Part shown: positions 33,211 to 62,139 of the stretch, in pieces
Position numbering within the stretch: position 1 is the stretch's first letter
Layout: every line of letters begins with the position of its first letter
Origin: Bifidobacterium catenulatum PV20-2
Lineage (GTDB): Bacteria; Actinomycetota; Actinomycetes; Actinomycetales; Bifidobacteriaceae
DNA: 64,000 nucleotides
Reading direction: 5' to 3'
NCBI RefSeq assembly: GCF_000800455.1
Contig: NZ_CP007456.1
Span: 2,232,001 to 2,296,000 of the forward strand
The notes under the pieces: generated by a model
What the model was told of the DNA's origin: nothing
Databases searched by the model: none
What the model saw: the letters and a program-made list of their open reading frames with translations, nothing else
Program-made: the position numbers and the translations under genes

Positions 33211-33331
33211 GAATGCGGCGGCGTGCTACTCTCCCACACCCTCTCGAGTGCAGTACCATCGCCGCGACCAGGCCTTAGCTTCCGGGTTCGGAAAGGGACC
33301 GGGCGTCTCACCTGGGCCATGACCACCGCAA
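33211..33331 (-). rRNA. rrf: 5S ribosomal RNA
   Basis: The minus strand carries a full 5S sequence, from GCGGTGGTCATGGCCCAGGT to the pairing 3' end GCCGCCGCATTC, with the internal CCCGGTCCCTTTCCGAACCC block. The ends are approximate to a few bases. Last gene of the rRNA operon. Confidence 0.93.
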
Positions 33332-33531
33332 AACCAAACACAACGGCCAACCACAAGGATCGGCCGGCAAACGGAACCAACCACGATTCCGATCGTGGCG
33401 GTCCGGGAACCGGACAACGGACGCGAACAAAACGCCTTACCAACATCATCATTGTGACCACAAGAAACAGCGTTCCCTGCCATCCAACGAGAAAAACCAC
33501 CACAGGACGAGACCCAACCCACAAGGGTTGG

Positions 33532-38589
<5,058 letters not shown>

Positions 38590-59506: not shown

Positions 59507-60348
59507 GGATGTGCTTACACTATTTAAGTTTTGCGTGATAATTGCATGTGTACGCCGAGGCATGACATCACGCTTGACCAGTTCATGAGGATCGCACATC
59601 TGTTGCCGCGCCAGCGCGGCAACGTGGCGGTCGACAACCACACGTTCGTCAACGCCCTGCCGCGGATGTGCCGCACGGGAGCCCCGTGGAGGGACCTGCC
59701 GGAGTGCTACGGCAAGTGGATCACCGTCTTACCGGCGGTTCAACCGCTGGTCCAGGAACGGCGCGATAGAGCGCCTGTTCACGGCATTGCAGGAGGAGCG
59801 GATCATCGGGGTGGAGATCCGGGTGTCCGCCATGGACTCCACGAGCGTGAAGGTCCACCAGCACGCGGCCGGGGCGCCGGAAAAGGAGGCTCCCGGTCAG
59901 TCAGCGTCTCCCGGGGAGGGCGGAACACCAAAGTTCACGTGGCATCCGACAGCGAGAGCACGGTCGTCGAGATCCATCTGAGCCCGGGCAACGAGCACGA
60001 CGCGGCCCACGGGCGCCGCTCGATGGCCGCGCTCGGCGCGTTCATGGGCACGCACCTGCTCATGGACCGCGCGTACGAGGGGGATTCCACCCGGCTGCTG
60101 GCCGAGTCGTTCGGCCTGACGCCGGTCGTGCCGCCCAAGAGGAACCGTACGGCCCCATGGGATTGCGCCAGGGAGACGTACAAGGGGCGGAACATGGTCG
60201 AACGCGTCTTCAACCGCATGAAGCACTACCGCAAGGCCGCCACCCGCTACGACAGGCTCGACGAGACCTTCCTCACCAACCTCCAGCTCATCCGCATCGC
60301 CATCTACCTGAAAAACACAGCCAAAAACCAACTAGTGTAAACACACCC
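59507..60348 (+). mobile_element. IS5-family insertion sequence, degenerate
   Basis: 842 bp. Imperfect 18-bp terminal repeats: left GGATGTGCTTACACTATT, right the complement of GGGTGTGTTTACACTAGT. It encodes a single transposase that needs two frame changes to be complete. Target duplication is not clear. Confidence 0.8.
59546..60340 (+). pseudogene. IS5-family transposase with two frameshifts
   Basis: N-terminal DUF4096-like part (LDQFMRIAHLLPRQRGN; GAPWRDLPECYGKW), then a shift: YRRFNRWSRNGAIERL and the first catalytic aspartate in AMDSTSVKVHQH lie in another frame; a second shift restores the frame at GGRNTKVH. The rest holds LLMDRAYEGDS and RNMVERVFNRMKHYR. An extra T near 59735 explains the first shift. 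Some IS5 relatives use programmed frameshifting, but two shifts suggest decay. Confidence 0.75.
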
Positions 60349-61609: not shown

Positions 61610-61639
61610 AAGGGCACCAAGCAACAGCTCGGTGCCCTT
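61610..61639 (+). terminator. Terminator of the HdeD-like gene
   Basis: AAGGGCACC/GGTGCCCTT with a 12-base loop, then TCCTTTCTTCTT. Confidence 0.8.
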
Positions 61640-61734
61640 TCCTTTCTTCTTCGCGTCTGCTGTCGTTTGCTTTCACAGGTTATTACTTTTTCTTCAAGAT
61701 TAGCCGATGATTTTACAAAAGAAGTGACGATCGT

Positions 61735-61767
61735 CGCATGACATTAATGGTTTGCTTGGCTTAGAAT
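61735..61767 (+). promoter_or_regulatory. Promoter of the microprotein gene
   Basis: TGACAT (61739-61744), 17 bases, TAGAAT (61762-61767). The -35 region overlaps a CGCATGACATT copy of the repeat found before the HdeD-like gene. The leader from here to the ATG would be ~110 bases and A-rich. Confidence 0.6.
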
Positions 61768-61882
61768 GAAGGCACAACAGAAGAACGAAGAAAAAAGACA
61801 AACACAATACAGACTTACGGCAGCGGCCAGAGGAATGACAAGAAGAAAAGACGTGCCGCCAAGCCAAGTGAAAGGAAACATC

Positions 61883-62005
61883 ATGAAGAACAACACTTTC
61901 GATCAGATCATCAACGCCAACCTCGCCTCCATCGATCCGGGTTTCGGCCAGTTCGCTCTCGCCAAGGCTTCCGCTGACCTCTTCAAGAAGGTCCTCAACA
62001 AGTAA
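61883..62005 (+). CDS. 40-residue microprotein with highly optimised codons
   Basis: Starts at ATGAAGAACAAC after GAAAGGAAACATC, a good ribosome site; the longer open frame from 61766 overlaps the promoter. The sequence has an acidic/polar middle (SIDPGFGQF) between two helix-like parts, with a basic end FKKVLNK. All five Lys codons are AAG, all five Asn AAC and all four Leu CTC, the pattern of very highly expressed genes. No family is recognised; no signal peptide or membrane span. It has its own promoter and terminator. Confidence 0.75.
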   Translation: MKNNTFDQIINANLASIDPGFGQFALAKASADLFKKVLNK

Positions 62006-62083
62006 GACCGTTTCCTAGACGGGAGACAAGGCGCAGGCGCCACAGCACCTCGCCCCTCTTCTTTCCAATCCTTAAATCACATA

Positions 62084-62123
62084 GCGGGAGGCCGCGGTTT
62101 CAAACGGAATCGCGGCCTCCCGC
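62084..62123. terminator. Bidirectional terminator between microprotein and MFS genes
   Basis: GCGGGAGGCCGCG/CGCGGCCTCCCGC with a 14-base loop; TTTTC follows on the plus strand. It separates the two convergent genes. Confidence 0.85.
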
Positions 62124-62139
62124 TTTTCACGTACGCCGG

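Follow-up and report, generated by a model that had tools for sequence, protein, structure and literature searches.

Introduction

The closest published arrangement to the one described here is that of the ANR proteins of Gram-negative bacteria, Aar and Rnr among them: helical proteins of very small size whose expression an AraC-type regulator activates. Members of this group are 39–80 residues long and have three conserved helices and a conserved cysteine (PMC4038620), and Aar, which in E. coli binds and shuts off its own activator AggR, attaches to the linker of AraC-like proteins (PMC5570504; see also PMC10148876). The AggR regulon comprises at least 44 genes.

SgrT is about the size of the microproteins considered below and is made under a dedicated regulator. 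It inhibits the glucose PTS transporter, to which it binds (PMC3901232). Leaderless bacteriocins and phenol-soluble modulins are likewise short, lack a leader and occur in several copies.

Here we compare with these systems a locus of Bifidobacterium catenulatum PV20-2, lying in a stretch of 64,000 nucleotides (NZ_CP007456.1, positions 2,232,001 to 2,296,000) that we refer to as the window. As with the ANR proteins, a very small, predicted helical protein appears to be activated by an AraC-type regulator, to judge from sequence comparison; in contrast to them, it has about 40 residues with two predicted helices and is devoid of cysteine, and the putative regulon holds at least two unrelated microprotein families with no other target found. 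A search of the open-licence literature returned no publication on the 40-residue protein, and none of the hypothetical proteins listed in the accessible part of a B. kashiwanohense secretome study could be linked to the microprotein genes (PMC5219805).

Results

A codon-adapted frame forms its own transcription unit

The frame at 61883–62005 translates into MKNNTFDQIINANLASIDPGFGQFALAKASADLFKKVLNK and is virtually certain to be a real gene. It and its immediate surroundings comprise:

61883 to 62005, + strand: family A microprotein gene, 40 aa, one of three copies in its own genome (translation, paralogues, profile, pN/pS, CAI)
61870 to 61877, + strand: ribosome-binding site GAAAGGAA (sequence, copy alignment)
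62083 to 62124, + strand: strong terminator stem-loop behind the microprotein gene (folding)
about 61610 to 61639, + strand: terminator ending the upstream gene, so that the microprotein transcript is isolated (folding)

A chance open reading frame was ruled out by conservation, codon bias and the existence of paralogues. A longer version starting at the in-frame ATG at 61766 (79 aa) was also rejected, as this codon sits in the −10 region and conservation of the protein begins at 61883. Synonymous substitution, which had been proposed as a check, gave a pairwise pN/pS of 0.35 (153 pairs among 18 close copies).

All lysine (AAG, 5/5), asparagine (AAC, 5/5) and leucine (CTC, 4/4) codons of the frame end in G or C, as the initial annotation had stated; its description of them as the optimal codons does not fully hold for leucine, since CTG outnumbers CTC in the ribosomal reference region (140 versus 89), which makes CTC a preferred codon and not the single best one. 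The codon adaptation index (CAI) is 0.888 against the ribosomal-protein region of the same genome, a reference of mechanically called frames in which at least 3 of 25 resemble shadow frames. This value exceeds those of all 82 background frames of at least 150 codons, likewise called mechanically (mean 0.44); of 2155 background windows 39 codons long a single one reached it, as did 23 of 257 windows from the ribosomal region. The two other family A copies of the genome have a CAI of 0.879 and 0.793, and its family B gene (see below) one of 0.764. Codon bias thus agrees with the very high translation proposed at the outset: the gene is apparently highly translated and would yield large amounts of product. 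The suggested role in structure, nucleoid or stress gained no support here.

A simple terminator scan passed over both the stem-loop at 62083–62124 (−39.7 kcal/mol, z −8.4) and the one that ends the upstream gene (z −6.1). Since the gene is flanked by these two strong terminators, it constitutes a transcription unit of its own, and the claim of a separate promoter and terminator is supported. Searches of Pfam, NCBIfam, PHROGs and PADLOC returned no family over threshold for the microprotein, in keeping with the earlier view that no known family fits; in Pfam and NCBIfam there was no match at E ≤ 10, and divergent members gave two weak Pfam matches below cutoff. That such a gene is easily missed proved correct only in part, because NCBI and other sources already carry several relatives as 'hypothetical protein'. 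The paralogues, the common promoter element, the regulator and the second family do not figure in the initial annotation.

Family A recurs in the genus Bifidobacterium

The own genome (G000 in our set) carries three family A copies, at 2293.9 (the window copy), 2332.0 and 2363.0 kb; one of the other two is 98% and the other 65% identical to the window copy. In a search of 112 genomes of the genus, the single sequence matched 19 at E ≤ 0.01 and a 10-row profile matched 29 at E ≤ 0.1. Three of these 29 (G074, G086 and G098) were counted as chance matches, being weak and occurring where neither the regulator nor a promoter match is present. A family A protein together with the promoter element is therefore found in 26 of the 112 genomes, one of which (G053, E 0.0016) was kept on the strength of its promoter, and in a 27th (G050) the element stands ahead of a divergent 39-residue frame. 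Conservation among relatives, whose absence the initial annotation had named as part of what would refute its proposal, is thus evident. Among 189 genomes of the family searched, the 77 outside the genus gave weak matches only, in four (E 0.04–0.09). Named relatives, from 13 loci, are B. catenulatum subsp. kashiwanohense, B. sp. N4G05, B. moukalabense, B. ruminantium, B. pongonis, B. merycicum, B. erythrocebi, B. pullorum, B. pullorum subsp. gallinarum, B. ramosum, B. goeldii and B. phasiani.

All three copies of the own genome are on the + strand and no more than 80 kb from dnaA. The rRNA operon (window 33213–38589) points the other way, so that, if dnaA marks the origin, the copies are transcribed head-on to the replication fork. 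An origin-proximal location is not general: it holds for G000, where dnaA starts at base 78, and in G031 dnaA is at 1772 kb. Spread by plasmids or phages was considered and rejected, as no plasmid match was found and the one phage match looks like a Bifidobacterium chromosome. This record (MT837054.1, L238), filed as a phage, holds the family A 5′ untranslated region (UTR), a cut microprotein frame and a trxB-like sequence downstream, as at an own-genome copy, and is for this reason probably chromosomal.

The product is predicted to be a small cytosolic two-helix protein

AlphaFold2, run with 32 sequences, predicted helices at residues 2–16 and 19–38 with moderate confidence (mean pLDDT 74, pTM 0.37). 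A PDB sequence search with family A returned two designed proteins at E ~0.8. The model and the sequence suggest a cytosolic, slightly basic protein, in which no export signal or membrane span was seen; a type I toxin was rejected in the absence, by eye, of a hydrophobic membrane span.

Shortness, lack of a leader, a net charge of +1 to +4 in the nine members counted and the presence of several copies or families per genome would also suit secreted peptides that act, bacteriocin- or modulin-like, on outside membranes. In two divergent members the amphipathicity of the helices exceeds that of most shuffles (p 0.018 and 0.005), and ABC-ATPase-like frames were noticed by eye at up to 6 of 27 loci. 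However, these frames lie 3.3–6.1 kb from the gene and form a cluster that mixes dissimilar proteins (25–35% identity), the window protein does not exceed shuffles in helix amphipathicity (p 0.07–0.35), no bacteriocin family profile matched, and the window protein, unlike a typical leaderless bacteriocin or modulin, is neither Trp-rich nor strongly cationic: it has no tryptophan at all. In the accessible part of the relevant report, two synthesised leaderless bacteriocins of Actinomycetota have 52 residues with 3–4 tryptophans, and the sole case from Bifidobacterium comes with an ABC transport system (PMC11580447). We regard a secreted peptide as improbable.

A conserved element precedes every family A gene of the own genome

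Comparison of the copies and folding delineated the following features upstream of the gene:

61693 to 61703, + strand: conserved upstream box TTCAAGATTAG (copy comparison)
61704 to 61740, + strand: regulator-type element CCGATGA...GCATG, with half-sites GATGATTT at 61706 and GACGATCG at 61726, 20 bp apart; proposed AraC-family site (copy comparison)
61762 to 61767, + strand: −10 element TAGAAT, 21 nt past the conserved GCATG (promoter scan, locus comparison)
61770 to 61782, + strand: predicted transcript start, inferred from the conserved AGGCACAACAGAA (copy comparison)
61819 to 61865, + strand: 5′-UTR stem with a long purine-rich loop, just 5′ of the ribosome-binding site, in the close family A clade only (folding)

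A simple promoter scan gave one site, TAGAAT at 61762–61767, which is no evidence by itself, as 0.8 would be expected by chance; comparison of the loci revealed a much longer conserved element upstream of it. With up to three mismatches, the pattern CCGATGANNNTACAAAAGAANNNACGAT occurs exactly three times in the genome, once ahead of each family A copy. Across 23 family A loci, some of which encode proteins merely 35–43% identical to that of the window, the spacing between the element and the −10 hexamer is nearly fixed at about 20–21 nt, and there is no well-conserved −35. Compared with itself at offsets of 5–25, the weight matrix of the element agrees best when shifted by 20 bp (0.53), which gives half-sites GATGAATA and GACGAnnG. 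Tandem half-sites spaced by about 20 bp beside a −10 are typical of AraC-family activators.

The conserved 5′ end of the transcript and the stem raise the question of whether a regulatory RNA, which would also carry the frame, is the main product. In 20 of 21 close family A copies the stem surrounds the long loop with changed sequence and kept pairing (by eye). The protein, however, is conserved over a much wider divergence than the hairpin, which is absent from the five distant loci folded and has z-scores of +0.4 to −3.0 in close copies, and both the pN/pS of 0.35 and the CAI speak for translation. An RNA as the main product is accordingly very improbable, and we treat the hairpin as a clade-specific feature of a protein-coding transcript.

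An AraC-type regulator co-occurs with the microproteins

In eight genomes (G009, G031, G035, G041, G056, G063, G064 and G111) an AraC-type gene is divergent from the microprotein gene at a distance of about 160–212 bp (match to match). Its product (from G035) has a C-terminal double helix-turn-helix (HTH_18/HTH_AraC) scoring over cutoff with PF12833 (77 bits) and PF00165 (76.4 bits). The nearest NCBIfam model is TIGR04094, the YSIRK-adjacent AraC-type regulator, which matches residues 22–238 at 131.3 bits but falls short of its cutoff of 200; moreover, TIGR04094 targets YSIRK surface antigens, whereas the targets proposed here are microproteins. No solved relative at E ≤ 0.001 in a PDB sequence search spans the N-terminal domain.

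Orthologues of the regulator (71–100% identity) are present in 27 of the 112 genomes, the next two matches being partial at 36% and 27%, and these are the same 27 that have microprotein and element (the 26 with family A, plus G050). Among 396 sampled genomes of the order, all five regulator matches at E ≤ 1e-30 are from Bifidobacterium. The co-occurrence of regulator and microprotein has a Fisher p of 1.6e-26 on the assumption of independent genomes, which they are not. We placed the shared trait on a dnaA tree of 30 hand-picked genomes (15 of the 27 with it and 15 of the 85 without), where it requires seven changes, six of them forced by supported branches; a single clade is rejected, and six independent pairs on supported branches give a sign test p of 0.03. 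As both traits are identically labelled in 30/30 rows, this test counts independent changes and could not show disagreement.

In the own genome the regulator (G000 859781–860527) lies far from the window and precedes histidine-phosphatase-like and permease genes. The phosphatase-like gene also adjoins the regulator in G031, G035, G063 and G111, which argues that the microprotein genes, and not the regulator, probably moved.

The element also marks a second, dissimilar microprotein family

A sequence-only model of the element (R1), trained on the 23 family A promoters alone and run on the 112 genomes with strict filters that lose weak matches, matched 56 genomes at E ≤ 1, namely all 27 that carry the regulator and 29 that do not. 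The best match in each regulator-bearing genome had E ≤ 0.0063; in the 29 others the best matches (E 0.0135–0.67) were mostly partial and were read as noise. R1 also scored loci ahead of a second family (B) of 38–44-residue proteins, in nine genomes (five at E 6e-8 to 2e-4, four at 0.001–0.07), with no detectable homology to family A (hhalign probability 4%), and it found the element before divergent microproteins in G050 and G009. The own-genome family B protein is MNKNQIFSAIKRGFEISGINALSMAAGSPSVNKALQEMIDEQR, encoded at about 1276.99–1277.12 kb; its site has the weakest R1 score (E 0.066), within the noise range.

A second model (R2), built from 31 promoters including those of family B, was run on the 27 regulator-bearing genomes only and gave 63 sites at E ≤ 1. 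Fifty-two of them, in 26 genomes, reach E ≤ 1.6e-5 and are followed by a gap to 0.003; 51 of the 52 stand before a microprotein frame by comparison of positions. The independent evidence is that from R1, since R2 is bound to match the 31 loci on which it was trained, and the absence of the element outside the 27 genomes was judged from R1 and the protein profile. The own genome has four R2 sites at E ≤ 1 (149 of 362 first-look candidates scored), all at microprotein genes, three of family A and one of family B.

A strong element without a following microprotein frame (G064:C2:400078–400176, L103), a site counted among the 51 that has no ATG at the aligned start (G045:C4:445, L027) and a promoter remnant beside the regulator gene (G053:C1:419460, L149) are decayed copies. 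In G063 and G064 the element next to the regulator has degenerated badly (E 0.019 and 0.044); these two loci and the G053 remnant belong to the 11 R2 sites weaker than E 0.002, along with five that looked like noise on reading and three others.

Family B relatives without the element lie at transporter loci

A family B profile identified relatives in seven genomes without the regulator (8 loci) and three extra copies in two genomes with it. These 11 loci, which we call B-prime (L227–L237; in G004, G017, G030, G058, G059, G068, G097, G098 and G102), encode proteins of 40–43 residues, and the element is absent from all of them (best 15–18 of 37 positions). Family B is thus not tied to the AraC-type regulator, given that it has relatives in seven genomes that lack the regulator, at loci without the element.

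Nine of the 11 loci have, within about 2.5 kb, a pentitol-type (RbtT/DalT/CsbX-like) MFS transporter and a zinc-type dehydrogenase. Two of the transporters were compared with the RbtT/DalT/CsbX cutoff and both exceeded it. Identity to the query was 69–100% at five loci and 52–54% at four for the transporter, and 83–100% at five and 27% at four for the dehydrogenase. One regulator each of the cupin-AraC and ROK types, both confirmed with Pfam, was also noticed near B-prime loci.

This linkage hints at a transport or metabolic control function of the microproteins. Akin to SgrT, an abundant microprotein might bind an uptake protein or enzyme for a sugar or polyol, and a related MFS-type gene about 1 kb from the family A loci G001c, G006 and G030 would fit as well. 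Yet at E ≤ 1e-15 an RbtT-type transporter was present neither in the window nor at 29 other loci (8–20 kb each), and the MFS gene that neighbours the window copy is of a different type and convergently oriented. The likeness to SgrT consists in size, a dedicated regulator and the position of family B relatives at transporter loci and would be that of a functional analogue only; no PTS gene was seen at the microprotein loci. Such a modulator is rather unlikely.

The microproteins are the proposed output of a dedicated activator

The reading that we prefer, with a probability of roughly 0.68, is that a dedicated AraC-type activator drives the bulk synthesis of two-helix microproteins, which constitute the output of its regulon. 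Control of the microproteins by direct binding of the regulator is very probable, inasmuch as binding can be predicted from element, linkage and co-occurrence. In the own genome the activator (G000 859781–860527) would control four output genes, three of family A and one of family B. A dimer would bind the two half-sites 20 bp apart, directly 5′ of the promoter, and, as this promoter has a −10 and no conserved −35, would recruit RNA polymerase; the resulting strong transcript would end at its own terminator and be translated from near-optimal codons. The most likely mode of action of the microprotein would then be stoichiometric binding to a partner protein, which might be a transporter or an enzyme, although we hold a partner-binding function in the cell as a tentative proposal, somewhat short of even odds.

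The ANR proteins suggest a different purpose, namely feedback, in which the microproteins bind and shut off their own AraC-type activator. Small helical proteins, a common element and an AraC-type gene that adjoins it in eight genomes are what such a circuit would look like, and the members of both groups overlap in size. But the detectable sites of the own genome (149 of 362 candidates scored) precede microprotein genes only, so that pure feedback would leave the regulator without any output; the several copies and the extreme codon adaptation fit an effector better; and there is no NCBIfam or Pfam match. The B-prime relatives, which lack the element, are found in seven genomes without the regulator and mostly lie near a transporter, and they likewise argue against a function limited to feedback on the regulator. 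Feedback as the purpose of the microproteins is therefore unlikely, and we consider it reasonably probable that they are regulon output and not merely a brake, because they are the regulator's only detectable targets, are present in multiple copies and are codon-optimised.

It is fairly likely that this is a self-contained regulon within Bifidobacterium, whose AraC-type activator is gained and lost together with its targets, the sole detectable ones being highly translated proteins of about 40 residues from at least two unrelated families. If the regulon reading is true, one promoter, and not one protein family, defines the system: whereas microproteins are mostly found singly, the element finds them even where sequence similarity is not detectable, and throughout a genus of gut symbionts a single regulator comes and goes together with them. 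The function of the microproteins would become testable, since all of them should fall silent once a single AraC gene is deleted. Such a regulon further suggests that well-sequenced commensals, for instance the relatives of B. catenulatum and B. adolescentis, harbour abundant proteins left unstudied as 'hypothetical'.

Other frames in the neighbourhood

Among 311 frames counted no more than 7.5 kb from 27 loci, the commonest neighbour cluster besides the AraC gene is LacI-type (10/27 loci, by eye), which we take to be ordinary for these genomes. By eye, the window also holds a frame resembling an IS5-like transposase (59531–60340, + strand, 269 aa), the third copy is followed by two small genes resembling a RelE-type toxin and an XRE-type antitoxin (L032:1855–2458), and a type I restriction HsdR-like frame directly precedes the own-genome regulator (L147:1–1467, G000 ~858.3–859.8 kb). 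Second, tandem family A frames without a promoter match of their own, which are possibly co-transcribed, are found at G031:C1:166013 and G041:C1:2669488. Finally, a frame of about 60–90 residues (NLNQ.V..MGPNEL..YA..), one representative of which gave no Pfam match, lies downstream of family B in eight of the nine loci read (L096–L099, L101, L102, L106 and L107; not L100).
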